Shown here piece after piece: positions 33,250-48,045 of a DNA stretch of 64,000 bases. Position 1 is the stretch's first letter; every line of letters begins with the position of its first letter. The position numbers and the translations under genes were made by a program. Source of the DNA: Geodermatophilus obscurus DSM 43160 (lineage in GTDB: Bacteria > Actinomycetota > Actinomycetes > Mycobacteriales > Geodermatophilaceae); assembly GCF_000025345.1 (NCBI RefSeq), contig NC_013757.1, positions 3,720,001-3,784,000 of the forward strand. Reading direction: 5' to 3'. The notes under the pieces are model-generated. The model saw only the letters and a program-made list of their open reading frames with translations, was not told the origin of the DNA and did no database searches.

Positions 33250-35328
33250 GTGAGCGAGCCCTCCGACGCCCCCGCCACCTCCTCCCCCTCCGGATCCCCC
33301 TTCGCCGACCTGGCGGCCTTCGTCGCCCTGCCGCGGGTCGGCGGCCTGGCCCTGTCGCCGGACGGCCGGCGGCTGGCGATCGCGGTGCAGACCCTGGACC
33401 GCGAGAAGACCGCGTGGCAGTCGGCGCTGTGGGAGGTCGACCCCGAGGGACGGCGGCCGGCCCGCCGGCTGACCCGCAGCGCACCGGGCGAGTCCTCGCC
33501 GGTGTGGGCGCCCGACGGCTCGCTGCTGTTCACCTCCGCCCGCCCCGATCCGGGGGCCGGCGACGGAACGGAGGAGCCGAAGCCGGCGCTCTGGAGCCTG
33601 CCCGCCGACGGCGGTGAGGCGCGGCCGGTGCTGACCCACCCGGGCGGGATCTCGGGTGTCGCCCTCGCCGCGGACTCCGGCGAGGTGGTCGTCACCGCGT
33701 CCGCCATGCCGGGAGCGGGCGACGCCGAGGCCGACGCGGAGCGGCGGAAGCGGCGCAAGGAGGCCGGGGTCACCGCGATCCTCCACGAGGCCTACCCGGT
33801 GCGGTACTGGGACAGCGACCTCGGCCCGGCCACCCCGCACCTGTTCTGGGCCGGCGGACTCCCCGCCGAGCCGCACGCCGGTGCCGAGCGCCCGCCGGTC
33901 GAGCTGCGCGACCTGACCCCCGACGCCGTCCCGCCCTCCGGCGCCGGTGGCGACCTGACTCTCTCCCCCGACGGCCGGCTCCTCGTGCGCGTGGAGTCCG
34001 TCCCCGACGGCCCGGCGGGCCGGCGGGACCGGCTGGTCCTCCTCGAGACCGCCACCGGGGAGGCCCGAGCCCTGGTCGACGACCCGCTCGCCGACCTGGG
34101 CGCGCCGCGCTTCTCCCCGGACGGCAGCGCCGTCGTCTGCGTGCGGGAGTCGATGTCGAGCCACGACGAGCCGCCGGACTACACGCTGTTGCACGTCGAC
34201 GTCGCCACCGGCGCGGCACGGGAGCTCACCCCGGGCTTCGACCGCTGGCCGTCCGCGCCGCAGTTCAACGCCGACAGGACGGCGGTGTACTTCCTGGCCG
34301 ACGACGACGGCCGGCACGCGCTCTTCCGGGTGCCCACGGACGGCGGGGAGCCGGTCCGCATGACCACCGACGGCGCCTACAGCGACCTGCAGGTGGCCCG
34401 TGACGGCAGCGCCCTCTACGCGTTGCGCTCGGCCTACGACGAGCCGCCGGCGCCGGTGCGGCTGGACCCGGAGGCGACCGGCCAGCACCCCGACCCGCTG
34501 CCGAACCCGGGGACCCTCGCCGGGTTGCCCGGCACCCTGCAGGAGGTCGAGGCCACCGCCGCCGACGGGACGCCGGTGCACTGCTGGCTGGTGCTGCCCG
34601 AGGGCGCGTCGGCGGAGCGCCCGGCGCCGCTGGTGCTGTGGGTCCACGGCGGGCCGTTGATGAGCTGGAACTCGTGGTCCTGGCGCTGGTGCCCGTGGGT
34701 GCTGGCCGCCCGCGGCTACGCCGTCCTGCTGCCCGACCCGGCGCTGTCGCAGGGGTACGGGCAGGACTTCGTCCGCCGCGGCTGGGGCGCCTGGGGCGAG
34801 GCGCCCTACACCGACCTGATGGCGGCGGTCGACGCCGTGGAGCAGCGGCCGGAGATCGACGAGTCGCGCACCGCCGCGATGGGCGGCTCGTTCGGCGGCT
34901 ACATGGCCAACTGGATCGCCACCCAGACCGACCGGTTCCGGGCGATCGTCACCCACGCCAGCCTGTGGGACGTGGACTCCTTCATCGGCACCACCGATGC
35001 GGCCTACTACTGGGAGAAGGAGTGGGGCGACCCGCTGCGCCAGCCCAAGCGCTACGAGCAGAACTCGCCGCACCGCTACGCCGACGCCATCCGCACCCCG
35101 GTGCTCGTGATCCACGGTGACCGCGACTACCGGGTGCCGATCGGCGAGGCGCTGCGGCTCTGGTACGACCTGCAGAAGCGCGGCGTCCCCTCCCGGTTCC
35201 TCTATTTCCCGAACGAGAACCACTGGGTGCTGACGCCCGGGAACGCGGGGGTATTCTGGGAGACAGTTCTCGCCTTCCTGGCGGAGCATGTACTCGACCA
35301 GGGGTGGCGACGCCCGGACCTGTTGTGA
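33250..35328 (+). CDS. S9-family prolyl oligopeptidase-like serine peptidase
   Basis: A 692-aa cytosolic peptidase of the acylaminoacyl-peptidase/DPP type. An N-terminal beta-propeller (LSPDGRRLAIAV, WAPDGSLLFTSA, FSPDGSAVV repeats) covers about 1-420, followed by an alpha/beta hydrolase domain with WVHGGPLMSW, the nucleophile GGSFGGYM, Asp in HGDRDYRVP and His in NENHWVL. The GTG at 33250 has a TACCGT box 7 nt upstream and may be leaderless. The last 26 codons are encoded by the integrated element: the native C-terminal coding sequence is displaced to 51.9 kb. All catalytic residues lie before the junction. Confidence 0.92.
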   Translation: MSEPSDAPATSSPSGSPFADLAAFVALPRVGGLALSPDGRRLAIAVQTLDREKTAWQSALWEVDPEGRRPARRLTRSAPGESSPVWAPDGSLLFTSARPDPGAGDGTEEPKPALWSLPADGGEARPVLTHPGGISGVALAADSGEVVVTASAMPGAGDAEADAERRKRRKEAGVTAILHEAYPVRYWDSDLGPATPHLFWAGGLPAEPHAGAERPPVELRDLTPDAVPPSGAGGDLTLSPDGRLLVRVESVPDGPAGRRDRLVLLETATGEARALVDDPLADLGAPRFSPDGSAVVCVRESMSSHDEPPDYTLLHVDVATGAARELTPGFDRWPSAPQFNADRTAVYFLADDDGRHALFRVPTDGGEPVRMTTDGAYSDLQVARDGSALYALRSAYDEPPAPVRLDPEATGQHPDPLPNPGTLAGLPGTLQEVEATAADGTPVHCWLVLPEGASAERPAPLVLWVHGGPLMSWNSWSWRWCPWVLAARGYAVLLPDPALSQGYGQDFVRRGWGAWGEAPYTDLMAAVDAVEQRPEIDESRTAAMGGSFGGYMANWIATQTDRFRAIVTHASLWDVDSFIGTTDAAYYWEKEWGDPLRQPKRYEQNSPHRYADAIRTPVLVIHGDRDYRVPIGEALRLWYDLQKRGVPSRFLYFPNENHWVLTPGNAGVFWETVLAFLAEHVLDQGWRRPDLL
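35242..35247. other. attL core of the integrative element
   Basis: AACGCG, in frame within the peptidase codons for PGNA, is shared with attR at 51892-51897. Left of it the sequence belongs to the host gene; right of it the codons encode a variant C-terminus (VFWETVLAFLAEHVL) that matches the displaced native end in 17 of 26 residues. The exact crossover dinucleotide cannot be fixed. Confidence 0.55.
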
Positions 35329-35340
35329 CCAGGGGGACAC

Positions 35341-36795
35341 ATGGCAGGCAAGACTCCGCAGCGGGCCGCGATCTACGTCCGCATCTCGGACGACCGGGAG
35401 GGTCAGGGCCTCGGCGTCACGCGGCAGGAGCAGGACTGCCGGGCGCTCACGGAGCGGCTGGAGTGGACGCTGCACCCGCACCGGCCCGTCTACTCGGACA
35501 ACGACATCGGCGCGAGCACCAAGAGCCGGAAGGCCCGCCCGGAGTTCGCCGAGCTGCTGGCCGCGGTCCGGGCCGGGACCGTGGACGGCATCCTCTACTA
35601 CTCCACGTCCCGTCTGACCCGGCGGCCGATGGAGTACGAGGGGATCAAGGCCCTGGTGGAGGACACCGGGGTCCGCCTCGCGTCGGTGGTGTCGGGGCAG
35701 GTGGACCTGACCACCGCCGACGGGCGGCTGTTGGGCGGGATCATGGCGCAGTTCGACGCCGCCGAGGCCGAGCGCATCAGCGAGAGAGTGCGGCGGACGT
35801 TCGTGCAGCACCGGGAGGCCGGGAGGCCGCACACGACCGGCACCCGCCCGTTCGGGTACAAGCCAGGCGGGATCAAGGTGGACGCCGTCGAGGCCGCCGC
35901 GATCCGCGACGCCGTCGAGTGGATCACCGACGAGAACGTCCAGGCGAGCCTGGGAGACGTGGTCCGGGCCTGGACCGCCGCCGGGCTGGAGACCGTGACC
36001 GGCCGCCCCTGGTCGCGGGTGATGGTGTCGAAGGTCCTCACCCGGCCGCGGAACGCCGGGCTGGTCGAGTACCTCGGGGAGATCGTCGGCCGCGGCAGCT
36101 TCGACGCGATCCTGACCGAGGACGAGCTGCGCGCCGTCCGCGAGGCCCTGGCCGCCCGGTCGGGGCTGGTGACCGCGCGCTACAGCCGCCGCCAGCATCT
36201 CCTGTCCGGGCTCATCTACTGCGGGGTCTGCGGCGGCCGGATGAAGGTGTCCGCGCGGCGGGACGCGGAGGGCGCGGTGCGCGCCGACTCGTTCGTCTCG
36301 TGCGTCAAGGACAACGGCGGGTGCGGGCACGTCAAGCGCAACCTACGGCTGGCGGAGGCGTTCATCCTCGGCGCGGTCGAGCGCCGACTGGCCGACGCCA
36401 CGGCCTTCGCTGACCCGGACGACGACTCCGAGGCCGCGCAGGAGGCCGCGCGGCTGACCGCCGAGCGCGACACCCTGCGGGCCAAGGTCGAGCGGCTCCA
36501 GAAGCTGATGCTGGACGACCCGGACTTCACCGCCGAGGACTTCGTGCCGATGATCCGGAAGCTGCGGGACCGCATCCGCGAGGTGGAGGCGCTGCTGGCC
36601 GACGTGGAGCTGCCCGCCCGCCGCGACGCCCTGGGGGAGGACCCGCTGGCCGACTGGCAGGCCGGTGGGTTCGATGAGCGCCGGGAGGTCCTGGAGGCGC
36701 TGGTGGCGCAGATCGTGCTGCACCCGATCGGGAAGGTGGGCCCGGCGCGGTCGCGGGCGATGGTGCCGGAGACGACGCAGATCATCTGGCGGTAG
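35341..36795 (+). CDS. int: Large serine recombinase (integrase)
   Basis: A 484-aa site-specific integrase. The N-terminal resolvase domain carries YVRISDDREG with the catalytic Ser16 and neighbouring Arg14, plus the second arginine region STSRLTRRP. A recombinase domain follows (FGYKPGGIKVDAVEAAAIRDAVEW), then a zinc ribbon with CGVCGGRMK and SCVKDNGGCGH, and a coiled-coil segment (TAERDTLRAKVERLQKL) expected to control directionality. GGGGGA precedes the ATG. It starts 12 nt after the peptidase stop, so after integration it can be transcribed from the host promoter. It should integrate the element at the adjacent peptidase site. Confidence 0.95.
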   Translation: MAGKTPQRAAIYVRISDDREGQGLGVTRQEQDCRALTERLEWTLHPHRPVYSDNDIGASTKSRKARPEFAELLAAVRAGTVDGILYYSTSRLTRRPMEYEGIKALVEDTGVRLASVVSGQVDLTTADGRLLGGIMAQFDAAEAERISERVRRTFVQHREAGRPHTTGTRPFGYKPGGIKVDAVEAAAIRDAVEWITDENVQASLGDVVRAWTAAGLETVTGRPWSRVMVSKVLTRPRNAGLVEYLGEIVGRGSFDAILTEDELRAVREALAARSGLVTARYSRRQHLLSGLIYCGVCGGRMKVSARRDAEGAVRADSFVSCVKDNGGCGHVKRNLRLAEAFILGAVERRLADATAFADPDDDSEAAQEAARLTAERDTLRAKVERLQKLMLDDPDFTAEDFVPMIRKLRDRIREVEALLADVELPARRDALGEDPLADWQAGGFDERREVLEALVAQIVLHPIGKVGPARSRAMVPETTQIIWR

Positions 36796-36811
36796 CCGGA
36801 CAGCTCGGCCC

Positions 36812-36850
36812 GGCGGCCCCGACCCCTCCTTGCGTGGGGGGCGGGGCCGT
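36812..36850 (+). terminator. Hairpin terminator after the integrase
   Basis: GGCCCCGACCCCTCC pairs with GGGGGGCGGGGCC around TTGCGT, followed by GTTTCG. It starts about 20 nt after the integrase stop. Confidence 0.7.
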
Positions 36851-36890
36851 TTCGCTGTCTCCGGGGTGAACTTTTTTACCGGCTTTCAGC

Positions 36891-36930
36891 GGCCTGTGGC
36901 GGCCTGTGGCGGCCTGTGGCGGCCTGTGGC
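36891..36930. repeat. Four tandem copies of a 10-bp unit
   Basis: GGCCTGTGGC is repeated four times without change (36891-36930) and flanked by degenerate copies at 36881 and 36931. It lies in a non-coding stretch between the integrase terminator and the first small gene. The 10-bp period equals about one helical turn, so a protein-binding array is possible, for example an excisionase or accessory site. Confidence 0.6.
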
Positions 36931-37036
36931 GGCCTTTCGGAATAAGGGGCCCGATAGGTCTCCGTAGCGCTTGTCGGCCTTTCTGCGGACAATGGATGTA
37001 GCCCGCTCACCAGCACGGATGTGGAGACAACCTCCG

Positions 37037-37225
37037 ATGGAAACCCCCCGCAACGCTCGGCCGACGGCATTCGCCGGACACGTCGGTAGGCGCGTCCACT
37101 CCGCCGAGAGAAGCGTCCAGAAATGGACGTCTACTTATCCGCCAATCCCGCGAGCGGTCCGGGAAAGGCTCGCCGACATGCTCCTCGCCGAGGACCCGGC
37201 CGACCCCACCGAGGTCGGGCAGTGA
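37037..37225 (+). CDS. Small element-borne protein
   Basis: A 62-aa basic protein with a C-terminal helix, PPIPRAVRERLADMLLAEDPADPTE, of a kind often seen at the start of actinophage or element operons. The start is uncertain (in-frame ATG codons at 36992 and 37019 too). The stop overlaps the next GTG start by GTGA, indicating translational coupling and supporting that both genes are real. No known function. Confidence 0.45.
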   Translation: METPRNARPTAFAGHVGRRVHSAERSVQKWTSTYPPIPRAVRERLADMLLAEDPADPTEVGQ

Positions 37226-37392
37226 GCACCGACGACCACCTCGCCGAGCTGTACGCCTCCGGCGCGGTCTACGCCGCCGCGTCCGCCCCGATCAGCCCGG
37301 CCACCGCCCGCGAGGCCCTGACCCTGCTGCGCGCCCAGCGCCTCGATCGGGACCGCCGCCGCCAGGGACGCCGCAACCGAGGGGCCGCGTAA
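37222..37392 (+). CDS. Small element-borne helical protein
   Basis: A 56-aa protein, acidic at the start and very basic at the end (AREALTLLRAQRLDRDRRRQ). It is coupled to the previous gene by a GTGA overlap. The basic C-terminus suggests nucleic acid binding, but the gene is not recognised. It could be an excisionase-like accessory factor by position and size; that is a guess. Confidence 0.45.
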   Translation: MSTDDHLAELYASGAVYAAASAPISPATAREALTLLRAQRLDRDRRRQGRRNRGAA

Positions 37393-37416
37393 TGAACGAG
37401 GACTACTCCGACCGGC

Positions 37417-37566
37417 ATGGCGGTGCTCCGGAACATGCGGGGCGGAGCCGCCGCGGGTGCCGCCGCCGGGCCGACCGGGATGGCCGCCGTCGCCGCCACG
37501 TCCGCCGCCAAGGGCAGCGTCGGCACCCCTCCCCCGCCCGCTCCTGCCGCGAAGGACGCTGCCTGA
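37417..37566 (+). CDS. Possible 49-aa Ala/Gly-rich protein
   Basis: The frame reads MAVLRNMRGGAAAGAAAGP and ends PPPPAPAAKDAA. The low-complexity composition could arise from GC-rich DNA alone. It fills the gap before the HTH gene, and an overlapping frame beginning at 37392 (TAATGA junction) competes with it. Weak evidence. Confidence 0.25.
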   Translation: MAVLRNMRGGAAAGAAAGPTGMAAVAATSAAKGSVGTPPPPAPAAKDAA

Positions 37567-37651
37567 CCATGCACGACAAGCAGAAGCCCCGGGCCGGTCG
37601 GTATCCGGCCCGGGGCTGCACCCCAAGTCTAGGACTAGGCGGGTGGGTTCG

Positions 37652-38578
37652 GTGAGCGTCGCCGCCTCCCGCTGGGTGTTCCGGCACATCGCCGACTACG
37701 GCATCCGCCCCGACGAGGACCGGGCCGACTTCGGGCCATACCGCCTCGCGCTACTGCTCGCCGACTACACGAACCCTAAGGACCCGGGGGAGGGTGCCTG
37801 GCCGTCGCGGGACACGCTGGCCGTCGACCTCAGGACGACGCCCCGGACCGTCACCCGCTGGCTGGCGCGCCTCATTGCCGCCGGGGTAGTCGAGGTCCAC
37901 GAACAGGAGGCTCCGCCGACCGGGAGACGCGGTCGGCGGTCACACCGCTATCTGCTGCCCGGCTTCCTCGCCGCCGAGTTGCTGGACAAGCCGAGCGTGT
38001 CCGTGTCCCGCAACTCCTCAGACTTGGAAGACACGCTACGCGGGAACGTGTCCCGCAACTCCGCCGATTTGCGGGACACGGACGCCAAATTGCGGGACAC
38101 GGACGGGGGAATTGCGAGACACGGACACGCTCACGATGACCCCCGAGGGAGATATCTAGAAGTGAAGGAGGGGAAGGACCCCCTCCCCCCCACTCCTTGG
38201 TTCCCTCGTCAGTGCTCCCAGCACCAGGACGCTGAGAACGACCGGCCGTGCGTCCCGTGCAAGCGAGCCCGCCAAGATCACGACGCCGCGGCCGACGAGA
38301 AGCTGACCCGGCAGCAGGTCGAGGACATCCTCGGGGTCGACTACTGGCAGCCTCCGCCCCCGCCCGCCAACATCTGGGATGACGACCGCGCCAGCCAGGC
38401 GTGGGCTCGTGAGCAGGTCGAGGCTCACCGCGCCGACCGGATGCGGCAGGCCAAGCTCCGCCTCAGCAAGAGCGAGACGGGGGGGCCAGCCGTGGATGTG
38501 ACCCGACTCCCGGCCCCCGCATCGACCGGCGGCCGGGAACAAACCCCACCCCCTCCCCACTCCTCCGTAACTGCGTAG
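37652..38578 (+). CDS. Winged-helix replication-initiator-like protein
   Basis: A 308-aa element protein. The N-terminal domain (about 1-100) has the layout of Rep/phage-initiator helix-turn-helix domains: FGPYRLALLLADYTN, then WPSRDTLAVDLRTTPRTVTRWLARLI and AAGVVEVHE. A linker (about 115-160) is encoded by DNA carrying five iteron-like sites. The C-terminal half has a CSQHQDAENDRPCVPCKRAR segment with possible zinc cysteines and a charged tail. An initiator gene that contains its own origin resembles gene O of phage lambda. No polymerase or helicase domain is seen. The start could also be GTG 37643. Confidence 0.65.
   Translation: MSVAASRWVFRHIADYGIRPDEDRADFGPYRLALLLADYTNPKDPGEGAWPSRDTLAVDLRTTPRTVTRWLARLIAAGVVEVHEQEAPPTGRRGRRSHRYLLPGFLAAELLDKPSVSVSRNSSDLEDTLRGNVSRNSADLRDTDAKLRDTDGGIARHGHAHDDPRGRYLEVKEGKDPLPPTPWFPRQCSQHQDAENDRPCVPCKRARQDHDAAADEKLTRQQVEDILGVDYWQPPPPPANIWDDDRASQAWAREQVEAHRADRMRQAKLRLSKSETGGPAVDVTRLPAPASTGGREQTPPPPHSSVTA
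37993..38132. other. Putative replication origin: five iteron-like sites inside the initiator gene
   Basis: The motif TTGCGGGACAC (or its complement) occurs at 38003-38013, 38048-38058, 38069-38079, 38090-38100 and, with one mismatch, 38112-38122. The last three are spaced 21 and 22 bp, two helical turns. The outer copies extend to a 21-bp inverted repeat (37993-38013 and 38112-38132). Copies lie on both strands and in different reading frames, so the repetition is selected in DNA, not in protein. Interpreted as an origin by analogy with initiator genes that hold their own iterons. Confidence 0.55.
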
Positions 38579-38770
38579 TTGTCTCCCGCGCCCAGGCACC
38601 CGCGGGACACGGGGACGCCGGTGGGGGACGGCTCCGGGCTCTCCGCCTGCCGTCCCCGGCCGCCGCCGACCCCACGAATGCCCGATACCGGTCTAGGGCG
38701 GCTGGTGATGGAGAGCAAGGAGCCGGACCGGTGGCGTGCCCGGCGCACGTCAGGAGGGGGAGACCGCCCC

Positions 38771-39167
38771 ATGACGGTTCCCGGTCAACTCCCGATGTGG
38801 GACGACCTAGCTGCTGCGGTGCGGGGGGAGGTCCGGCCCTACGGGACGGTGTCAATGCCAGGCCTGCTGCCGCCGGTGCTGCCACCGGGTGTGGCCCTCA
38901 ACCCGGGTGTCGGGGACGGGGGCCCGGCGACCCTGCTGTACCGCGCGTACTGCCGGTGCGGGGTCCTCGCCTACGTCGGGGTCACCAACAACCTCCTGTC
39001 GCGGATCGGCGGGCACGCCGCCTCCCCCAGCTACCGGTGGGTGTGCCGGGTGGCCCGGTGGGAGTGAGAGGTCTACCCGACCCGCCGCGCCGCGCTGGCC
39101 GCCGAGCGGCAGGCGATCCGCACCGAGCGGCCGATGCACAACCTCGTGCACGCCGTCGAGCGGGTGA
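38771..39167 (+). pseudogene. GIY-YIG nuclease interrupted by a nonsense codon
   Basis: The domain is recognisable from LLYRAYCRCGVLAYVGVTNN (the GIY-YIG-like strand pair) and LLSRIGGHAASPSYRWVCRVARWE. A TGA at 39065-39067 stops the frame, yet the same frame goes on as EVYPTRRAALAAERQAIRTE and RPMHNLVHAVER, which is the expected continuation of the family. One substitution explains the break. The N-terminal 60 residues are not family-like. In phages such proteins are homing or repair nucleases. Probably inactive. Confidence 0.6.
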
Positions 39168-39239
39168 CCACCCCCGGTGCCGGTGCCCGCAGCCCGAGGA
39201 GACACCCCCGGGGGGAGTCCCCGGGGACGATGGGGTGCC

Positions 39240-39896
39240 ATGACCGAGCCGACGCCCGACTCCCCAGCCGAGCCCCCCGCCGACGAGGGGCCACCGACGG
39301 TCATCACCCGCTGGGCCACCACCGCCGACGTGCCCCCCGCCGCGTGGGCCGCGATGTCCTCCGACATGCGGGACGTCCTGGCCGTGACCGCCGCGGGCGG
39401 GGCGACGGTGACCCATCCGGACGACCCGGCCGGGCCGCCGCTGTTCACCCCGGCCACCATCGCGTTCCGGGTGACCACCCCGGACGGGCCGCCGCTGACG
39501 GTAGAGGTCAAGCGCGCCGCGGGCTCCGGGCGGGTGGAGACGTCGGCGACCCGCACGACCGGCCTGGTCCACCTGACGATGACGAGAGCGGCTCAGCATT
39601 GGGGTGCCCTGGTGCGGACCGACTCCGGCGCGGACACCCGCGCCCGGGCATTCGCGGACGCCCTCGGCGAGACGCTGTTCGGGGCTGCGGATCGGGCCGT
39701 CGGCGGCGGCATCCCCCTCCCCCCGGTGGAGACCGCCCGGGGGATCACCCGCGCCGCCTACGAGCGCGCCGCAGCAGATGCCCCCCCGGGGGGAGACGTC
39801 GTCGGCTATCTGAACGCGGCCATCGCCGAGCTGACCGAGGAGCGGGACGGCCGGGCCCTGGCCGCCGCCGCGCTCCCCCCGCCTGACCGCCGCTGA
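39240..39896 (+). CDS. Element-borne hypothetical protein
   Basis: A 218-aa protein, not recognised. The N-terminus is Pro/Glu-rich; the middle (AFRVTTPDGPPLTVEVKRAA ... LVHLTMTRAAQHWGALVRT) has a beta-rich pattern; the C-terminus is helical (GDVVGYLNAAIAELTEERDGR). Codon use is regular, and an ATG follows GATGGGG. It lies just downstream of the GIY-YIG remnant. It could be a phage regulatory or structural accessory protein; nothing decides. Confidence 0.5.
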   Translation: MTEPTPDSPAEPPADEGPPTVITRWATTADVPPAAWAAMSSDMRDVLAVTAAGGATVTHPDDPAGPPLFTPATIAFRVTTPDGPPLTVEVKRAAGSGRVETSATRTTGLVHLTMTRAAQHWGALVRTDSGADTRARAFADALGETLFGAADRAVGGGIPLPPVETARGITRAAYERAAADAPPGGDVVGYLNAAIAELTEERDGRALAAAALPPPDRR

Positions 39897-41216
39897 CGAG
39901 GACACCCCGCCCTGCCTCATCCCGTCGGTGCCCGCTTGTGCCCGACCCCGGACCCCCTGGACGTGGACACCCCCCGGAGGAGAGCTCCACCCCCAGGTCA
40001 CGACCCCCTCAGCGCCCCCGTACCGACAGCCCTAGCCCGGAGACGCCAGGCCCCCAGCGTTCGGCCGGTGCGCGTCGACTGGTGGCACGCACGGTCCGCG
40101 CTGGCTCCCGAGCACGAGGGGACCGGCACGGGGTCGACCCCCTGAGTTGCCGTGTGCCGCCTCCGATGAGGGGCCGCGGTCTCCTCGACTCCAGCACGTT
40201 CGGCTCAGGCCGTCCTGCGGCAACTGACGGGGTCGATCTCACGAGGACCACCAGCACGAGGGACACCACCAGCGCGAGAGGCACGAGGACAGCGGGCACG
40301 ACGGCATCGGCACGACGACATCGGGACAGCGTGGTCACGACGACGGCATCGGCCAGCGTGGACAACAGGACGTGGACAGCAGGACGTCGACAGCACCACG
40401 GCATCCGCACCGCATGGGCAGCAGAGCAGAGACACGGCGAGCAGGGAGGCAGGGCAGCAGGGAGGCAGGGCAAGGCAGGGCAAGGCAGGGCCAGCACGAG
40501 GCAGCGGACACGGCTACACCTCACGAGCACGAGCAGATGAGCGCGAGCCATCGAACAGCACGAGCAACCATGATCGACAACGCCCGAGTACGAAGATCAC
40601 ATGAGCAACGCGTGAGCTGACGCGTGATTACGTGACCTGCGATGACGCGTGCATCGTGAGCAGCGTGAGCTAGAGCCAGCACACGACGACAGCACGAGCA
40701 GCGAGACCGACAGCGCCGAGCACGGCGACGACAGGGTCAGCACGACGGGCACGAGCACGGGCACGGGCACGACGGGCACCGCACCACCCACCGACCGGAT
40801 CCGGAGGCGATCCGGCACCGTCTCCGCGCCACCTCCGCAGGCGGTGAGGGTCCACTCGTGGATCGCCCGTGCTGGTGGATCATGGGCATGTCGTCTCGCT
40901 CGGCGGTGAGCGCCCCGGGCCGCACTGGAGCGCCACGCCTCCTGCACACCGCAGGGCGAGGCGACGCACTACGCCTGAGCCATCGAGGGAGCCGCGGAGA
41001 CCATCGGCCGAGCTACGATTTACTCAGACAGTAAGCGAATAACTGCGCAGGGTAGGGGGCTTTGCGATCCCCTCTCCGTCGGCGCTGGCGACCCCCGGCC
41101 GGTAGTCGTATCCCTCCCCACCGGACGCTAGGAAGGGGGGAGAGGTGTCTACGATGGGTGTAACCGCAGGTCAGCCGCGCATTATCGGCTCTGACTGGTA
41201 GCCGAACGGAGGCACC
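39897..41216. other. Long non-coding, T-poor low-complexity region
   Basis: About 1.3 kb without a credible gene. From about 40,240 to 40,530 the plus strand is almost devoid of T and consists of degenerate CACGAG, GACAGC and GGCAGGG units, including tandem CAAGGCAGGG at 40471-40490. At 40611-40675 CGTGA occurs five times within about 65 bp. The long opposite-strand open frame here is an artefact of this composition. The segment from 40,960 has a more normal composition and leads to the small-gene operon at 41217. Confidence 0.55.
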
Positions 41217-41519
41217 GTGGCGCGTAAGCCGGACACCCCGTGCGCCGGAGGCTGTGGACGTCTCCTCTGGGGCACGTCCACGTCGCTGCCCCCGGGGGAG
41301 CGGGTGTGCCAGCGGTGCCGCCGGGCCCGGAAGAATGCGGAGCCGGACGAGGCCCGGCCGGAGGCGTGCGGCTACTGCGCCGAGCCGTTCACGTCCAAGC
41401 GGCGGGGTGTCGGGTTGTGGTCGTGGTGCTGCTCCCGGACGTGCGCGCGGCGTCTGCGGATCGCCGAGGGTGACGACCCGTTCATGGTCGCCGCCGCCCT
41501 GCGGAGGGAGACCCGGTGA
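41217..41519 (+). CDS. Phage-type zinc-finger protein
   Basis: A 100-aa protein with three cysteine pairs: CAGGCGRLLW, CQRCRRARKN, and CGYCAEPFTSKRRG ... CCSRTCARRLR. The third unit is of the kind found at the N-terminus of phage HNH-like or zinc-ribbon proteins. The GTG at 41217 has GGAGG at 5 nt. It starts a set of four overlapping or closely spaced small genes upstream of the capsid gene. Likely DNA or RNA contact; function unknown. Confidence 0.65.
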   Translation: MARKPDTPCAGGCGRLLWGTSTSLPPGERVCQRCRRARKNAEPDEARPEACGYCAEPFTSKRRGVGLWSWCCSRTCARRLRIAEGDDPFMVAAALRRETR

Positions 41520-41764
41520 GCCCCGAAGACGAACCGATCACCCCCGAGGACATCACCCGCGGGGAGCTGGACGCGATCTCCGCGGAGCTACGCGGTGCAC
41601 GGCGGGAGCTGGACGCCGCCCTCGTCGTCGCCAGCTTCTACGTCCGGTCTCACGCGGAGAGCTGCCCGGCGGCGTCCGCGCTGACCGACCGAATCGCCGC
41701 CGCCTACGACAGGTTGGCGCTGGCCAACATCGCCGCGACGACCGCGGTCGACGGCCATGGATGA
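41516..41764 (+). CDS. Small phage-type helical protein
   Basis: An 82-aa helical protein (DAISAELRGARRELDAALVVAS, then DRIAAAYDRLALANIAATTA). It overlaps the preceding gene by GTGA and the next one by 8 nt, so it is part of a translationally coupled set. Not recognised; the coiled-coil character would suit a small structural or regulatory phage protein. Confidence 0.55.
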   Translation: MSPEDEPITPEDITRGELDAISAELRGARRELDAALVVASFYVRSHAESCPAASALTDRIAAAYDRLALANIAATTAVDGHG

Positions 41765-42008
41765 GGCCGCCGCCGCGCTGCTGACCGCCGCGCTGGGCCG
41801 CCGGATCGTGCCCGCCGACGTCCAGCACACCCACGGGTCATGGGTCCTGCTGCTGCCGGAGCACCCCCGCGACCCCGCCTGCCAGGTGCTCCCCGCGCAC
41901 GGCCGCCGCTATCAGGTGCACCCCGACGGGGCGGTGTACGACGTGGCCGCCGCTGTGTGGTGGCGGGACGGGCGACGCATCCCCCAAGGCCAGACCCGCA
42001 CCGCGTAG
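41757..42008 (+). CDS. Small phage-type protein, paralogue 1
   Basis: An 83-aa protein. It shares its layout with the product of 42038-42286: an MDE...AALGRRIVPADVQHT start matching MDE...AAIGRKIDPAEVEHV, a WVLLLP/FVILRP strand and a WWRDGR/WWRNGR end. The two arose by tandem duplication and diverged. The start overlaps the previous gene. No known domain. Confidence 0.55.
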   Translation: MDEAAAALLTAALGRRIVPADVQHTHGSWVLLLPEHPRDPACQVLPAHGRRYQVHPDGAVYDVAAAVWWRDGRRIPQGQTRTA

Positions 42009-42037
42009 CCGCGGGTACTGCGAATCGAGGAGACCCC

Positions 42038-42286
42038 ATGGATGAGACGACCGCCGCCGCCCGCCTGTCCGCCGCCATCGGCCGCAAGATCGACCCCGCC
42101 GAGGTGGAGCACGTCGAGGGCGCGTTTGTGATCTTGCGGCCGTTGCCGAGGCGTATCTACCAGCTCCACGCCGGGAACGTGGCCTATGAGGGGGACGCGG
42201 CGATGTGGTGGCGCAACGGCCGCCCGTGGGAACGCGCCGGGGACGAACGGAACACTCCCCGCCCCCTGGAGCTGGGGGCGGAGTAG
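42038..42286 (+). CDS. Small phage-type protein, paralogue 2
   Basis: An 82-aa paralogue of the preceding gene product (see there for the shared motifs). It has its own strong ribosome binding site (GAGGAG at 6 nt), unlike its overlapping neighbour, so it can be translated independently. It ends 20 nt before the putative promoter of the capsid gene. Confidence 0.6.
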   Translation: MDETTAAARLSAAIGRKIDPAEVEHVEGAFVILRPLPRRIYQLHAGNVAYEGDAAMWWRNGRPWERAGDERNTPRPLELGAE

Positions 42287-42303
42287 TCGTCGCACCCAGC
42301 GGG

Positions 42304-42309
42304 TATACT
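42304..42309 (+). promoter_or_regulatory. Possible -10 box of the capsid gene promoter
   Basis: TATACT stands out in a GC-rich context about 170 nt before the capsid ATG. No clear -35 box is seen. The leader between contains a GGCCCGCTAGAGGACCGGG hairpin-like stretch and two similar CATAGACGCC / CATAGAACGCC words. Confidence 0.35.
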
Positions 42310-42481
42310 CCTGCGGTCGGCATAGACGCCCCGGCCCGCTAGAGGACCGGGTGGCCTCGCCGCCCGACACCCGCAACACCTCGCGTTCGCCATAGAACGC
42401 CCGCCGCCCCGAGATCGAGGCGCGGTCACCGCCGTAGCACCCCCATGCGTGGGTCCGGCGCGTTTCTAAGGCGAACCCCCG

Positions 42482-43717
42482 ATGCACGTCGCCATCACCA
42501 CTCCCGAGCACGCCCGCCAGGCTTTGGACCGGGCCGACCAGCTCGCCTCCGCCGCCCGCAAGTCCGGGCGACCCCTCACCGATGCCGAGCACGCCGAAGT
42601 GCGTGACCTCCTCGCCGGTGTCCAGCAGCACAGGGACGAAACCGAGATGCGGGACCGCATCGAGGGCATGCGGCGACCCGGTGCAAAGGCCGTGTACGGC
42701 TCCCGGAGCACCGGCGGCACCGCCGGTGAGGCGTTCACCAGCAGCACCGCTTTCCAGTCGCTGCAGATGGCGTTCAAGTCCGGCGCGCTCACCGGCCGGT
42801 GGACCTCCGGCCCCGTCGAGGTGCCGGACTACTTCACCGGCCGCAAGGCCACCCTCCTCACCGGCGACTTCCCGTTCGAGCCGGACGTGCGCCCCGGCAT
42901 CCAGCCGATCCTCCAGCGCCCGATCGTGGTCACCGACCTGTTCGCGCCGGGCACCACCGACTCCGCCCTGGTCCGGTACGTCGAGGAGACCCTGTTCACC
43001 AACGGCGCTACCACCGTCGGCGAGGGCGGGCTCAAGCCCGAGAGTGCGCTCGCGTTCGACTCCGTGGACGAGCCCGTGAGAAAGATTGCGCACCACCTGC
43101 CGGTGAGCGACGAAATGCTCGAAGATTCGAGCCAGATGAGGTCATATATCGATTCTCGTCTGCGGCTCGGTGTGCAACTGGTCGAGGAGACCCAGCTCCT
43201 CTCCGGTGACGGCACCGGCACCAACCTCCGCGGCCTACTCAACCGCACCGGCCTGCAGAACCTCACCCTGACCGCCCCGACGACGGGGACGAACCCGTCC
43301 ATCGCCGAGACGCTGTACCAGGCGATCACGAACGTCCGCGTCAACGCCCTCGTCGAACCCGACGGCGTCGTCATGCACCCGTCCGACTACGCCGCCCTGC
43401 GGCTGGCCAAGGACTCCGGTGGGGAGTTCAACGCCGGAGGCCCGTTCGGCGCGCTCGCCGGGACCACCGTGTGGGGCCTGCCCGTGGCCCTGTCCATGGC
43501 GCTGCCGGTCAACACCGCGATCGTGGGCGCGTTCCGCTCCCAGGCTCAGGTGTTCCGCCGCAGCGGGCTCGTCGTGGAGGCAAGCAACTCGCACGCTGAC
43601 TACTGGACGCACAACCTGACTTCCATCCGCGCTGAGCTGAGAGTTGCGCTGGCGGTGTTCAGGCCGTCGGCGTTCGTGCGGTTGGCCGGACTCCAGCACG
43701 CAGGCGTCAGCGCCTGA
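42482..43717 (+). CDS. HK97-family phage major capsid protein
   Basis: A 411-aa capsid subunit. The N-terminal 110 residues form a helical, charged delta-like region (LDRADQLASAARKSGR ... QQHRDETEMRDRIEGM), followed by the HK97 core: YVEETLFTNGATTVGEGG, KIAHHLPVSDEMLEDSSQMRS, LGVQLVEETQLLSGDGTGTN, MHPSDYAALRLAKDSGGEF and the final FRPSAFVRL. It is full length and intact. No protease, portal, terminase or tail genes are near, so assembly would depend on a helper phage or the gene serves another use. The delta-like region suggests a scaffold fused to the subunit. Confidence 0.92.
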   Translation: MHVAITTPEHARQALDRADQLASAARKSGRPLTDAEHAEVRDLLAGVQQHRDETEMRDRIEGMRRPGAKAVYGSRSTGGTAGEAFTSSTAFQSLQMAFKSGALTGRWTSGPVEVPDYFTGRKATLLTGDFPFEPDVRPGIQPILQRPIVVTDLFAPGTTDSALVRYVEETLFTNGATTVGEGGLKPESALAFDSVDEPVRKIAHHLPVSDEMLEDSSQMRSYIDSRLRLGVQLVEETQLLSGDGTGTNLRGLLNRTGLQNLTLTAPTTGTNPSIAETLYQAITNVRVNALVEPDGVVMHPSDYAALRLAKDSGGEFNAGGPFGALAGTTVWGLPVALSMALPVNTAIVGAFRSQAQVFRRSGLVVEASNSHADYWTHNLTSIRAELRVALAVFRPSAFVRLAGLQHAGVSA

Positions 43718-44518
43718 CCCCACAGGCCGATCCTCCGCCCGCGTGTTCGGCGACTCCGCGGGTGAAGGGCCGCACCAACCGGGGCGTCAAAGTCACCGGC
43801 CCACTTGGTCATGCGGGTGGGACCCGGATCCATGGCCGGTGAGGGGCGTCTCCTATGCGCCCCGCAGACCCGACCAGCGCCCCGGTCACAGCTCCCGGCC
43901 GGTGGCGTCCTCGCCAGGCCCGCCACCGGCCGGGAGTCGACCACCAGGAAAGGACCCCGACGTGGGTGACGCACAGGCCCCGGTGATCTTCGCGCCGCGG
44001 AGACGCCTCAACACCGGATCGGCGATCTCCGGACGCAGGTAGCGCACCTGCACCGGGAGCTTGACCTCATCGCCCTCGGCTTGCGCTCCGTCGCCGCCGG
44101 GCTGGACGAGCTGGCCGCCGAGCACGACGAGCAGGAGCAGTAGCCGTGGCCTCCTCCGCCGCCGGTGCCACCGGGCTCGTGCCCGCCGCTGAGGTTGGTC
44201 GTGGTCCGGCTCCCGGGTACAGACCCGATTAGTACCGCGGCCGCCAACCTTCGCCCTGAGCGGCCCACTCAGGGACACGCAGCCCCGTCGGCTTGGCGGC
44301 TGACACCCTCGGATCGACCGCTCGGCGGGATGGTGATCGTGGTCGTCCTGGCAACATATGCCATCCCGAAGGGGGGAGCTTGTACGAATCGATTCGTGAC
44401 CTGACGAGGTCCTGTTTCTAGTCTTACGAAGACATCTAGCCGGGCCGCGGATGATCCGTTGGGCAGCGGGCTCTCAAGATCAATTCGCGCCACTCAAGTC
44501 ATCGACGGGGGATCCTCC
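43718..44518. other. Gap after the capsid gene with gene debris
   Basis: About 800 bases without a sound gene. A 26-codon frame from GTG 43962, with AGGAAAGGA upstream, ends at 44042. An overlapping frame without a start codon then reads HLHRELDLIALGLRSVAAGL and DELAAEHDEQEQ, a plausible coiled coil, so a small frameshifted gene may lie here. A dispersed 50-bp repeat copy is at 44229-44279. Confidence 0.4.
44229..44279 (+). repeat. Element-specific dispersed repeat 1, copy A
   Basis: Contains AGTACCGCGG, AACCTTCGCCCTGAGCGGCC and CAGGGACAC in that order. The same order of words occurs at 49333-49385 and, inverted, at 50157-50209. Non-coding in all three places. Confidence 0.6.
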
Positions 44519-45160
44519 ATGTCACAGCCCACTCCGCCTGCGCCTCCGCAGTTCGCAGATCCCAAGAGCGCGAAGGCCCAGGCGAAGGCCGAGAAGGCGT
44601 ATCGCAAGGCCAGCCGCCCCTTCTTCAAGAAGAAGCGCTTCATCCTTCTCGCGGTCATCGCCCTCATCCTCATCATCGCCATCGCCCAGGGCGGCGATGA
44701 CGACAGCGGCTCGTCCTCGACTTCGTCCGGCGGCGGTTCCTCGTCCGGCGATATCGCCAAGGCCGTGGGCCTGAACCAGGCCGTTCAGGACGGCAAGTTC
44801 GAGTTCACCGTCACCGGCGTGGACTGCTCCAAGAACACTCTCGGAGCCGACCCCGTTTCCACCCAGGCGGCCGGCGTCTTCTGTCTGGTGAACGTGAACG
44901 TGGCGAACATCGGGGACGAGGCCCAGACCCTCGACTCCACCAGCCAGTACGGCTACGACGCTGCAGGCAAGAAGTTCTCTACGGACACCGAGGCCGCGTT
45001 CTACCTGGAGAACGGCGGCGACACGCTGTTCGAGCAGTTGAACCCCGGTACGTCCGTGGACGGTGTGCTTGTCTTCGACGTGCCTGCCGAAACGCAGCTG
45101 ACCAAGCTGGAGCTGCACGATTCGCCGTTTTCCGGGGGCGTGACGGTCAACCTCGGCTGA
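44519..45160 (+). CDS. Membrane-anchored DUF4352-type protein
   Basis: A 213-aa protein. A short basic cytoplasmic part is followed by one transmembrane helix (FILLAVIALILIIAIA, about 41-57), a Ser/Gly linker and an extracellular Ig-like domain with the DUF4352 pattern: KFEFTVTGVDCSKN, FCLVNVNVANIGDEAQTL, FEQLNPGTSVDGVLVFDVP. Such proteins are frequent on actinobacterial prophages and elements. A role at the cell surface, for example exclusion of other phages, is possible but unproven. A strong terminator follows. A second protein of similar build is next. Confidence 0.8.
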   Translation: MSQPTPPAPPQFADPKSAKAQAKAEKAYRKASRPFFKKKRFILLAVIALILIIAIAQGGDDDSGSSSTSSGGGSSSGDIAKAVGLNQAVQDGKFEFTVTGVDCSKNTLGADPVSTQAAGVFCLVNVNVANIGDEAQTLDSTSQYGYDAAGKKFSTDTEAAFYLENGGDTLFEQLNPGTSVDGVLVFDVPAETQLTKLELHDSPFSGGVTVNLG

Positions 45161-45175
45161 TAGCTCGAACGACGT

Positions 45176-45215
45176 ACGAAGCCCCTGTCCCGGTCAGCTG
45201 GGGCGGGGGCTTCGT
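45176..45215 (+). terminator. Hairpin terminator after the DUF4352-type gene
   Basis: ACGAAGCCCC pairs with GGGGGCTTCGT around an internal CCGGTCAGCTGGGG, followed by CATTTC. It begins 15 nt after the stop. Confidence 0.8.
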
Positions 45216-45298
45216 CATTTCAGGCCGCCTTAGCGGGGCTGCCACGGGCGGTCCCAGCGCGACACAACCACACTTAAGCTCACGTTAGGAATGACACC

Positions 45299-46048
45299 GT
45301 GGCCGAGGACACGACCACCGAGCCGCTCGAGGACGAGACCGCGCCCGAGCCTACGCCTGCGCCGACGCGCACGCCCCTCTGGCAGCGTGGACCCGTCCGA
45401 GTGGCCGCAGGAGCCGCTGCGCTGCTCCTGGCCGCTGGCCTGGGCGCGACCGCCGTCGCCGCGAGCCAGCAAATGAATGAGCCGATAGCCGCAACGCCGA
45501 CGCTGCCTCCCACCCCGACGCCCACGCCCGCACCCACCACGAGCGCCGCGCCGGACCCGGACCTGAGCCCACGCGGTCACATCATGAAGGACCTCGGAGA
45601 GGTCGATGGGCTCGCCCACCCGGACGACCTCACGCCGTCACTTGAGGAGCTCGTCCTCTCGTTCTCCATCGACGCGATCCGGGTGGACGCGCCCTGCACG
45701 AGCGAGTACGCCGAGGACCCGGAGAACGGGCACTTCGTGGCGCTCGACATCCGCGCCTCCACGACCGAGAACTACCCGACGGACGCCTACTACTTCCAGA
45801 TGAACCCGACATCCTTCTCCTTCGTGGGGTCGGACGGTGTGTTCGTGCAGAACATCGCGACGACGCCGACCTACGGGTGCATGGACTACGACGACCCGAA
45901 CCTCTTCCCGTCCGCGACGTTCACGCCGGCGAGCTCGTACCGCGGGACCGTGATCCTGGATATCCCGGAGACGAGCGGCACGCTCATCTGGACTCCCATG
46001 GGCGGCACCTCCGGCTGGGAGTGGCAGATCGGGGGCCCCGCCCAGTAG
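45299..46048 (+). CDS. Membrane-anchored extracytoplasmic protein
   Basis: A 249-aa protein: acidic N-terminus, one transmembrane helix (VRVAAGAAALLLAAGLGATAVAA, about 33-55), a long Pro/Thr linker (TPTLPPTPTPTPAP) and an extracellular beta-rich domain (VLSFSIDAIRVDAP ... HFVALDIRASTTENY ... GTVILDIPETSGTLIW) resembling the DUF4352 fold of its upstream neighbour. The GTG at 45299 has AGGAA upstream. The independent terminator before it suggests its own promoter. Probably another surface-displayed cargo protein. Confidence 0.7.
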   Translation: MAEDTTTEPLEDETAPEPTPAPTRTPLWQRGPVRVAAGAAALLLAAGLGATAVAASQQMNEPIAATPTLPPTPTPTPAPTTSAAPDPDLSPRGHIMKDLGEVDGLAHPDDLTPSLEELVLSFSIDAIRVDAPCTSEYAEDPENGHFVALDIRASTTENYPTDAYYFQMNPTSFSFVGSDGVFVQNIATTPTYGCMDYDDPNLFPSATFTPASSYRGTVILDIPETSGTLIWTPMGGTSGWEWQIGGPAQ

Positions 46049-46057
46049 GACCGGCCG

Positions 46058-46314
46058 GTGCCCGGCGCGGCGTACCCGTCCGAGAGGATCGCCCTGGTGG
46101 CGTTCGTCCCGGCCCGGCAGGAGCCCCCCGGCCGCGCCGGTCACGATCGGCGACCTGCCGCGGCATCGGGTCCTCACGATGCAGGCCGACTCCACCGGCC
46201 GGTGGCAGGTGTGCACGCTGGGGGACGAGCGGAGCACGTTCGGCCCATACGGGGGTCGCGGGACGGCCCCCCGGGCCTCATCACCCGCTCACCGTGGACG
46301 AGGTGGACCGGTGA
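46058..46314 (+). pseudogene. Decayed phage-type gene (two frameshifts)
   Basis: Three frames each give a sensible stretch in order: ERIALVAFVPARQEPP, then IGDLPRHRVLTMQADSTGRW with CTLGDERSTFGPYGG, then HPLTVDEVDR and a stop that overlaps the next start by GTGA. The gene was probably one protein of about 85 residues. No family was recognised. Confidence 0.35.
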
Positions 46315-46591
46315 CCGCCGTCTGCCCGGAGTGCGCGGGGCCGCAGCTCCCCGGTCACCCAAGGGGCACCTGGTGTTCAACCACAACCGGGCCACCTGCT
46401 CCCTGGGCCGCGCCGAGGACGCCACCGCCGACGCCGACCTACGCCGTGCGGCCGGGTAGCTGGGGCCGTTCGCCCGGCCGGTCACCGACGTCGAGAGGAC
46501 CTTGCTGGGCGCCGTCGGGATCGACCCGGCCGTCATCGAGCCGTGGAGCCACGTCATCCCCGTGTCGCCGGGCGTGATCCGGCGGCACTGA
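46311..46591 (+). pseudogene. Decayed phage-type gene (frameshift and amber codon)
   Basis: Starts VTAVCPECAGPQLPGHPRGT, shifts frame to LVFNHNRATCSLGRAEDATADADL, then meets a TAG, after which the same frame continues as VTDVERTLLGAVGIDP and ends normally. The CPxC...FNHNRATCSL arrangement recurs in small actinophage proteins that I recall only as hypothetical. Two lesions make it inactive. Confidence 0.5.
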
Positions 46592-46614
46592 ACGGAGAGG
46601 AGGGAGATCGCAGC

Positions 46615-46791
46615 ATGACCGAGAACGCCATGACCGAGACCGCCGAGTGCGACGCGGACGTCTCGACCCCAGACCGTCCGGGACCAGCCCGGGCGACCGG
46701 GGAGAACTACGACGACGACCCGCCAGGCCGTCAGGCGGGCCGCCGACCAGGGCAGCGGCGTCACCTGGGGTGCGGTCTTGCGGGGACGTGA
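46615..46791 (+). CDS. Small phage-type protein, possibly frameshifted
   Basis: A 58-codon ORF with a very strong ribosome binding site (GAGGAGGGAGA). The first 35 residues are acidic (MTENAMTETAECDADV). Near 46715 another frame gives RQAVRRAADQGSGVTWGAVL, more protein-like than the actual C-terminus (Arg/Gly-rich), so a frameshift is likely. It completes a run of three damaged small genes. Confidence 0.4.
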   Translation: MTENAMTETAECDADVSTPDRPGPARATGENYDDDPPGRQAGRRPGQRRHLGCGLAGT

Positions 46792-46924
46792 TTGATTGCC
46801 TAAGTGCGCCTTGTTTCATCATCACCCCCGCGCCAAGAGGCCTTGCTGATCCGGCTGATCAAGCTGAGACTCCCTAGTGCAACGCCGTCTCCTCCGCCGC
46901 GCGGGTCACTCGGAGGCAGGAACC

Positions 46925-47863
46925 ATGGGTACTTCATACCAGTCACCGCTTACTGAGTCCGAGAACGTGGTCACGCAGGTTGCCGAGGCCCAGGCTCGTC
47001 GCGATTATGCGCAGACACCGGAAGGTCAACGGAAGGCAAACCTGCGGCGCTACTTGAACATGTTTGGTGTAGCTTCGAGTGCAGCCGCAGTCTTCGCCGT
47101 AATTTTGGGCCCCTTTGCGTTCCAGTGGCCAGGTCGAATAACAGGAGCGGTTGCCGCCTCGTGCCTCTTCTTGGCAGCGTTTCTACCGTTTGTCGGTTAC
47201 AGGACTTATGAGAAGGGGCTAGGCGCCTGGAATCCTCGCGCCAGAGCTGAGGCCCTCCAGGACTTACAGGCTAAAAAGGAGAAGTTTCTGGCGGAGTCCA
47301 GCCTTGAGGCCCTACTGATTTTCAACCGCGAGGACATGTATCGGTACCATGACATCGCTACAACGGTCGCTCGTCGGGCCTCTCGTCTGAGCGCTTTCGC
47401 TATGACCGTGGGATTCTTGGTCCTGGTCGCGGGAGCAATTTCTGTCGTCATAATACAGAACAACACCAGTAAGATTGTCATCGCGGCGCTGACTGCGTTG
47501 GGTGGCCTCTTCTCCGGATACATCACCAAGACATTCTTTACAGCCGAAGAAAAGGCCGTCAATCAGCTGTATAAGTATTGGCAGCAGCCGCGTGAGGCGA
47601 GCTATCTACTGGCGGCCGAGCGCGTAGCCAGAGAACTCAACGATCCGGCGAAGGAGCGTGCATACACAGACGTGATCACAAAGGCGCTGTCCATCGTGCT
47701 GATCAAGGAGCAGCTCGATCTCGAGGCGGACAACGTAGCTGGCAATGGCGCGCTGACGTCAAAGCCTCGCACCCGTCGGCCACGTGGATCCACGCGAGTC
47801 CAGCCAAATAATCCACCGGCGCAACCCAACGGTCAGGGCTCAGCCGCGGCCGACACAGCATAA
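46925..47863 (+). CDS. Four-TM protein with TRADD-N-associated-type membrane domain
   Basis: A 312-aa protein with two pairs of transmembrane helices: about 45-65 and 72-92 (FGVASSAAAVFAVILGPF, ITGAVAASCLFLAAFLPF), and about 160-182 and 188-205 (SAFAMTVGFLVLVAGAISVV, IVIAALTALGGLFSGYI). The second pair is followed by KTFFTAEEKAVNQLYKYWQQ and SYLLAAERVARELND. This segment matches the pattern I recall for the TRADD-N-associated two-TM domain (CyanoTRADDas_TM), predicted in bacterial conflict systems. The gene is clearly lower in GC than its neighbours, so it was acquired separately. GGAGG lies 8 nt before the ATG. No fused death-like or NTPase domain is present. Confidence 0.65.
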   Translation: MGTSYQSPLTESENVVTQVAEAQARRDYAQTPEGQRKANLRRYLNMFGVASSAAAVFAVILGPFAFQWPGRITGAVAASCLFLAAFLPFVGYRTYEKGLGAWNPRARAEALQDLQAKKEKFLAESSLEALLIFNREDMYRYHDIATTVARRASRLSAFAMTVGFLVLVAGAISVVIIQNNTSKIVIAALTALGGLFSGYITKTFFTAEEKAVNQLYKYWQQPREASYLLAAERVARELNDPAKERAYTDVITKALSIVLIKEQLDLEADNVAGNGALTSKPRTRRPRGSTRVQPNNPPAQPNGQGSAAADTA

Positions 47864-48045
47864 GCTGAGAGGCCAAGACTCCTGATGCAAAGGGGTGGTG
47901 GAAAATGCCTAATCACCTGGTGGCGTATAGCGGTGTCTGAGATGGCCTGCTGCGCCCAGCAATAAGCGCCAGCAGCGCACCCGTCGGGTCAGCGGCCCGA
48001 GGGATCACCCATCCGTACCGGGGCTGACTCTCGGAGCCAGCGCGC

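Follow-up and report, generated by a model that had tools for sequence, protein, structure and literature searches.

A putative lambda-O-type replication origin inside the initiator-like gene of an integrated element in Geodermatophilus obscurus

The stretch of the Geodermatophilus obscurus DSM 43160 genome analysed here (NC_013757.1, positions 3,720,001 to 3,784,000; 64,000 nucleotides, below called the window) contains an integrated element in which a large serine integrase gene, a winged-helix replication-initiator-like gene and a gene for an HK97-type major capsid protein follow one another (Table 1). The empty insertion site was found in two other genomes (L050 in G011 and L051 in G009, with a left flank about 95-96% identical), in which the sequence corresponding to window positions ~35302-35322 joins that at ~51884, and a third genome (L052, 90% identity) agrees with this empty site. 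At the right junction the original end of the host's S9 peptidase gene is found at ~51885-51978, and the left junction (35236-35328) holds a diverged version of the final ~90 bp, supplied by the element, with 19 mismatches plus gaps in 97 alignment columns. Given that the right junction keeps the original gene end and the left one is a copy brought by the element, the length of the insert was set at ~16.65 kb. Because the element supplies its own copy of the last ~90 bp, the reading frame of the host gene remains uninterrupted up to its end.

Table 1. Features of the integrated element and of the array inside its initiator-like gene (window coordinates).
Feature	Position	Strand	Remarks
Integrated element	35236-51884	.	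~16.65 kb, in 3' end of S9-type peptidase gene
Large serine integrase	35341-36795	+	PF00239, PF07508, PF13408; phrog_95 E=3.9e-88
Winged-helix replication-initiator-like gene	37652-38578	+	GTG start at 37652, 308 aa
Iteron-like site	37979-37989	+	degenerate, 2 mismatches; matrix rank 24 among 33050; in step with array
Iteron-like site	38003-38013	-	exact TTGCGGGACAC
Iteron-like site	38024-38034	+	degenerate, 3 mismatches; matrix rank 10 among 33050; fills 45-bp gap
Iteron-like site	38048-38058	-	exact TTGCGGGACAC
Iteron-like site	38069-38079	+	exact TTGCGGGACAC
Iteron-like site	38090-38100	+	exact TTGCGGGACAC
Iteron-like site	38112-38122	+	1 mismatch (TTGCGAGACAC); frame differs from other + copies
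Candidate DNA-unwinding element	38130-38169	.	least stable 40 bp of the gene, -53.6 kcal/mol
HK97-type major capsid protein	42482-43717	+	PF05065 E=3.9e-42, phrog_10 E=2e-59

Besides these genes the element contains small ORFs, a cut GIY-YIG-like frame, several unassigned ORFs and others. Of the element ORFs scanned, none but the capsid gene was recognised as a virion gene, and it gives the sole PF05065 match in the genome. Genome-wide there was no match to the portal families PF04860 and PF05133 or to the large-terminase families PF03354, PF20441 and PF03237, these five being the families covered by searches whose controls were positive in 2-6 of 14 genomes. Ten further element ORFs had no match among the PHROGs, the ORFs scanned included no recognisable TerS or other helper-hijacking gene, and PADLOC reported no known defence gene among six element ORFs. 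Likewise, neither a P-like helicase loader nor a primase could be recognised when 23 of the element's ORFs other than the shortest were compared with PHROGs and 15 with Pfam, many of them giving no match at all. On the five families searched and the ORFs scanned, the element is thus without the full packaging and virion gene set, as phage satellites are, and we regard it as a candidate satellite or decayed prophage. Candidate PICIs of Mycobacterium, one of which has a serine integrase, are described as integrated regions with an integrase and a major capsid protein (PMC10654092); by this rule the present element is a candidate PICI as well, and it resembles these and the phiRv1-like elements in its integrase and capsid genes while the hosts differ.

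Other features of the element were recorded in passing. Four tandem 10-bp copies of CGGCCTGTGG lie at 36890-36930, shortly 3' of the integrase gene. The GIY-YIG-like endonuclease frame (38732-39067; weak Pfam match, E=0.0033) is stopped by a TGA at 39065, and the sequence past this codon still looked plausible as protein when read by eye. The ORF at 44519-45160 encodes a DUF4352 protein whose PHROG matches, to superinfection exclusion, are weak (E ~1e-3), and a TMEM175-like potassium channel protein (PF06736, E=1.5e-17) is encoded at 49388-50143.

The protein encoded by the winged-helix gene gave weak PHROG matches to replication initiation (phrog_270, E=5.2e-7) and to an O-like group (phrog_391, E=5.7e-6). 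In Pfam its HTH matches (HTH_36) were all below the cut-off, and there was no match up to E=0.1 to Phage_rep_O, the family of phage replication O proteins. Because no match to this family was obtained, our claim is that the protein may work like lambda O, not that it is a member of the Pfam family. Given nine aligned sequences, AlphaFold2 predicts a winged helix spanning about residues 1-104 and a separate C-terminal region with helices at 201-226 and 245-277 (mean pLDDT 65, pTM 0.37). Most of residues 108-186, modelled with very low confidence, was taken as a disordered linker, and this low-confidence stretch is encoded by most of the repeats described below together with the unstable tract. 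When the model was compared with PDB structures no match was found at E<=0.001 (the DnaD N-terminal domain was at 0.088) and the matches were mostly generic winged helices of the MarR and ArsR kinds; a search of viral models gave 29 matches at E<=0.001, the majority of them HTH proteins or proteins without a name, and one to a replication protein O at 1.5e-3.

An earlier note on this DNA had described five copies of a short word within 120 bp of the gene, in both orientations, and this was confirmed: TTGCGGGACAC occurs as four exact copies and one copy with a single mismatch between 38003 and 38122. The steps between these five clear sites are 45, 21, 21 and 22 bp, so that the last three (starts at 38069, 38090 and 38112) are spaced as the note had stated. 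A weight matrix was built from the five clear sites and used to score 33050 positions in the element, and two degenerate copies were added from it, one of them within the 45-bp gap and the other, at 37979, lengthening the array by one step. This gives a seven-site array with steps of 24, 21, 24, 21, 21 and 22 bp. The five clear sites occupy gene nt 352-471 and the repeat cluster gene nt 342-481. The helical phasing of the five sites is not significant taken alone, as 1330 of 20000 random placements match or beat it. The inverted repeat formed by the outer pair also exists, not with the length of 21 bp first given to it but with arms of 25 nt (37993-38017 and 38108-38132) that are 92% complementary.

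The word itself is not enriched in the window. When up to 2 mismatches were allowed, 28 matches to TTGCGGGACAC were counted in the whole 64-kb window against 26.4 expected, and given this chance-level count it is the clustering of the sites, not their frequency, that is non-random. The 15-mer TTGCGGGACACGGAC occurs three times among 26 Geodermatophilus genomes, each time at the window locus, and the two-site pattern had no occurrence in the viral contigs searched. The clustering was examined by synonymous shuffling, in which codons are permuted within the gene so that both protein and codon usage are kept. The gene has 58 clustered 8-mer repeat pairs, whereas the shuffled sequences average 6.7 and never exceed 35 (z ~15), so that none of 1000 shuffles reproduced the clustering; the test was also run with another seed. 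Given that the shuffled genes keep the peptide and yet fail to reach the observed count, the peptide alone does not explain the repeats. The earlier statement that a protein repeat could not account for the sites was thus upheld, but the change of reading frame between copies that had been offered in its support applies to the fifth copy only: the four exact copies are in a single codon phase and read VSRN when inverted or LRDT when direct. Real frame changes are found in several relatives.

The least stable 40 bp of the gene (38130-38169) begins 8 nt beyond the end of the last site, at gene nt 479-518. Within the element, 152 of 16501 windows of 40 bp are at least as unstable, placing the tract in the lowest 0.9%.

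No close homologue of the gene was present in the collections searched. With the single protein as query, 26 genomes of the genus yielded one distant relative, in G. amargosae, and 397 genomes of the order also one, in Blastococcus sp. CCUG 61487; the latter search scored five candidates per genome, and the G. amargosae relative was absent from its matches. The same query gave one weak match in a Bifidobacterium phage (E=8e-3) and found nothing among viral contigs or genome contigs. An alignment of the DNA-binding domain outperformed the single protein as query and gave seven viral contigs, one of which was the Blastococcus contig again. In genomes it gave 22 places, of which three were kept, namely the window gene and the relatives in G. 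amargosae and Blastococcus; the remaining places (E 1.5e-8 to 8.9e-4) were dismissed as other HTH proteins on their E-values and on reading of the translations. A fourth member of the group, in a third Geodermatophilus (genome G013), was found beside a weak match (L016, then L049). A home-made profile of the domain detected no relative among 1689 ORFs in 19 regions around other capsid genes, and this survey, drawn from 23 capsid places in 20 of the 112 genomes of the family (the other four places belong to loci described above or below), added no further member of the initiator group.

The relatives have repeats of their own. Those of the G. amargosae and Blastococcus genes are in the same place in the gene and of different sequence; in G. 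amargosae there are three copies of GGTTATGTCCC, spaced by steps of 22 bp and read in frames 0, 1 and 2, and in G013 GAACACCGGCA recurs at 22-bp steps, again in frames 0, 1 and 2. One viral contig (L032) carries six copies of AAACCCTGAA in two frames with steps of 21-33 bp, and the O gene of a Bordetella phage six copies of AAAGGGTGCA, also in two frames, the last five of them at 21-22-bp steps. In the genes of five Arthrobacter phages of Laroyevirus the winged helix and the C terminus are conserved and the linker holds one of two repeat words, a CGTCAGCGGG-type word in Salgado and Laroye and a GGGTACCC-centred palindrome in Waltz, Shrooms and Edmundo, where the copies are mostly 24 bp apart and all in one frame. 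Thus the layout is kept among the relatives while both the motif and the linker peptide differ. The earlier note had proposed that homologues conserving the peptide but not the DNA motif would speak against its reading. Since it is the layout that is kept, with motif and linker peptide both changing, this objection fails. Nor was its second objection, a lack of the sites in close relatives, borne out by the genes available, as 22 of the 24 tested below have repeats, although with other words.

The gene order integrase, initiator, capsid was found again in the G. amargosae and G013 elements, whose sequences are different. The G. amargosae element also encodes a small terminase subunit (L004, reverse strand 12771-13124; phrog_1496, E=7.8e-18), and no large terminase or portal was noticed when its translations were read by eye. 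In the Blastococcus relative, a contig of 42.7 kb, a large terminase (phrog_9, 2.3e-32) and a portal (phrog_12, 8.8e-85) are encoded downstream of the initiator and a capsid gene is present as well, which indicates that this type of initiator is common to phages and satellite-like elements.

The repeat and stability tests were applied to 24 initiator-type genes: the window gene, lambda O, nine genome or viral relatives, the genes of Salgado and of a Vibrio phage, and 11 more genes from phages. Lambda O aside, the phage genes, 13 in number, were hand-picked for diversity among the listed hits (45, 19 and 88 records matched) and none was discarded after the test; the 24 are not independent, as five belong to Laroyevirus. 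Significant in-gene repeats (p<=0.014) were present in 22 of the 24, including the window gene and lambda O, and in the Laroyevirus initiators and the RepA-like initiator of Kovu the strong repeats lie within gene nt ~280-500. Two clear relatives, L030 (p=0.15) and L035 (p=0.30), failed this localised test; in an earlier version of the test their values were 0.037 and 0.033. Among 20 control genes two fell below p=0.05 (the window capsid gene, 0.003, and the ORF at 44519, 0.022). A first version of the shuffle, with 300 shuffles of 18 genes (from 12 of the 22 genome places and 6 of the 7 viral loci), was weakly significant for L009 (p=0.007) and L012 (p=0.013) and not significant for L010, L011, L013, L015, L018, L021 and L025.

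In 17 of the 24 initiator-type genes, compared with 2 of the 20 controls, no more than 60 nt separate the repeat end from the start of the AT minimum; the exceptions are L035, L032, Vibrio D77, Waltz, Shrooms, Altadena and Klevey. Unlike in the window element, where weaker places exist, the tract that follows the repeats on the 3' side is the least or second least stable of the stretch examined for G. amargosae, G013, Salgado and lambda; it ranks sixth among 16218 windows for L029 and 75th among 12206 for L031, and in L032 the weakest tract sits among the repeats.

In lambda and the Stx phages, iterons and an AT-rich tract are described in the middle of gene O, whose protein consists of an N-terminal DNA-binding domain, a flexible linker and a C-terminal domain that binds P (PMC7466680, PMC6022878). 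The lambda O gene, used as a positive control, gave a shuffle z of 12 with the cluster at a like position: in the lambda record the annotated iterons occupy gene nt 349-433 and the AT minimum gene nt 437-476, compared with 352-471 and 479-518 in the window gene. The two share a winged helix at the N terminus, which in the window protein goes with the weak matches to replication-initiation and O-like groups, repeats placed directly after the DNA-binding domain with the least stable DNA just 3' of them, and, in the window protein, a low-confidence linker over repeats and tract followed by a separate helical C-terminal region. Unlike in lambda, the window sites are in both orientations, at 21-24-bp steps and of unrelated sequence; the window DNA is 72% G+C, its AT tract is weaker, and none of the element ORFs scanned could be recognised as a P-like loader. 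The parallel to lambda gene O drawn in the earlier note is therefore supported at the level of the shared layout points.

We consider it likely, from the layout of sequence and predicted protein, that the 140-bp segment holds the iterons of a replication origin of the lambda O type, lying within the gene that codes for its initiator. The N-terminal winged helix (about residues 1-104) would bind the 11-15-bp sites, which are ~22 bp apart, and the resulting nucleoprotein complex would strain the neighbouring AT-richer tract (38130-38169) and open it. A replicative helicase could then be recruited by the C-terminal region (about residues 200-277), and after excision driven by the integrase the element would replicate as a circle. 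We infer each of these steps, from protein binding to excision and replication, and the element can probably copy itself besides inserting itself.

The same array could be imagined as an operator, at which a winged-helix regulator would bind within its own gene for control of transcription and which would have no part in an origin. The generic winged-helix folds (MarR, ArsR) that dominate the PDB matches and the RefSeq label of transcriptional repressor on the related Salgado gp88 fit such a role, but the five clear sites lie far 3' of the start codon, in most of the genes compared (17 of 24) the array ends close to where the least stable tract begins, and the PHROG matches of the window gene and its relatives are mainly to replication initiation. 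Moreover, the Kovu homologue is annotated as an initiator and precedes a gene annotated as helicase loader, and lambda O shows the same layout, which together make an operator improbable. It is more improbable still, to the point of being nearly negligible, that the repeats are a coding feature without a function in the DNA, such as a short peptide repeat or a low-complexity linker. Some peptide repetition does exist, given that the exact copies share one codon phase and the direct ones read L-R-D-T, and in three Laroyevirus genes (Waltz, Shrooms and Edmundo) the repeats are likewise in one frame; however, the inverted copies give another peptide, the fifth copy is in another frame, shuffles that preserve the peptide fail to reproduce the repeats, and several relatives read one DNA word in two or three frames. 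Partition (parS-like) and excision-accessory systems also have clustered inverted and direct sites. An array of this kind instead of an origin is very unlikely here, as no ParA/ParB-type gene was recognised among the 23 element ORFs compared with PHROGs and the array lies ~2.7 kb from the left end, inside a gene of initiator type.

More weight has to be given to the possibility that the origin layout is real but belongs to a prophage in decay, with mobility and replication both lost, which we regard as possible, if rather unlikely. In favour of decay are the lack of genome matches to the five portal and terminase families, the TGA that cuts the GIY-YIG-like frame and the lack of a recognised TerS in the window element, and in one survey 47% of actinobacterial prophage predictions were classed as remnants (PMC10023795). 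Against it, the integrase, initiator and capsid frames are all open, and the order of these genes is repeated in two other Geodermatophilus elements, one of them with a TerS; recurrence of the order in elements of different sequence argues for a maintained type of element.

Several known systems come close to the proposed in-gene origin in one respect or another. Classical PICIs are described as having the origin 3' of rep, with two sets of iterons flanking an AT-rich region (PMC6092414). The window element is like them (SaPI, EcCI) in its own initiator, iterons and AT-rich region, some PICIs also carrying terS, and unlike them in that array and AT tract are inside the gene and not 3' of it. 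The initiators of Laroyevirus (Salgado gp88, Laroye, Waltz, Shrooms and Edmundo) and of Kovu share the winged-helix N terminus and the in-gene repeats, whereas the window gene is only distantly related to them and has other repeat words, and those phage records are ~58-60 kb long. In Kovu the next gene after the initiator carries a helicase-loader annotation, unlike in the window element, where no loader was recognised among the ORFs scanned. For mycobacteriophage prophages of the RepA type, an origin just upstream of or within repA has been suggested, and no repeated motifs were identified in the region examined in that work (PMC7157519). In-gene iterons in actinobacterial phages were not reported in the titles and abstracts covered, subscription papers being mostly outside the search. 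This kind of origin is thus already known, and in the literature searched we found no description of its satellite-like setting in Geodermatophilus or of the turnover of repeat words among relatives.

For this small actinobacterial element the analysis provides a specific candidate origin and initiator, and shifts its description from merely integrated to probably replicating. The layout is detectable from sequence alone by the synonymous-shuffle test and the stability minimum, and the same two tests could locate origins in actinobacterial phages and satellites whose initiators are labelled as generic HTH proteins or repressors. If functional alone, the 0.9-kb unit of origin plus initiator would be a handy starting point for plasmids for Geodermatophilaceae. 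A wider reading, which we offer tentatively as quite possible, is that Geodermatophilus harbours a family of satellites with a serine integrase, an initiator with built-in origin, sometimes a small terminase and a single capsid gene, in which the replicon would be one gene of ~0.9 kb without a dedicated loader. The cassette would then recur in actinobacterial phages and satellites, with the iteron words in the linker swapped wholesale and the DNA-binding and C-terminal domains kept, and many genes labelled HTH or repressor would be initiators. On this wider reading, replacement of the linker words while the domains stay would leave in every initiator gene a record of how its origin specificity has changed.

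Further genes and arrays of possibly similar kind were seen among the loci collected. Two initiator-like genes with a different N terminus have in-gene repeats, L071 (G253:C13, 12058-13083, + strand; z 18.1) and L067 (G017:C14, 12466-13029, + strand; z 6.8). By eye, the L071 gene has a GCRxCGTN-type cysteine motif in common with the Blastococcus relative, which suggests that DNA-binding domains have been exchanged over a shared C terminus. In another serine-recombinase element (L066, G021:C125), repeats of ACGTTTCCCC in both orientations were seen by eye at 4000-4121, just past a P-loop ATPase-like frame, so that the origin-like array there is outside the ATPase-like gene. Salgado gp88 (L073:2354-3298), the gene with the RefSeq repressor label, has in-gene repeats with z ~25 and matches phrog_270 at E=9e-25, and is likely a replication initiator.
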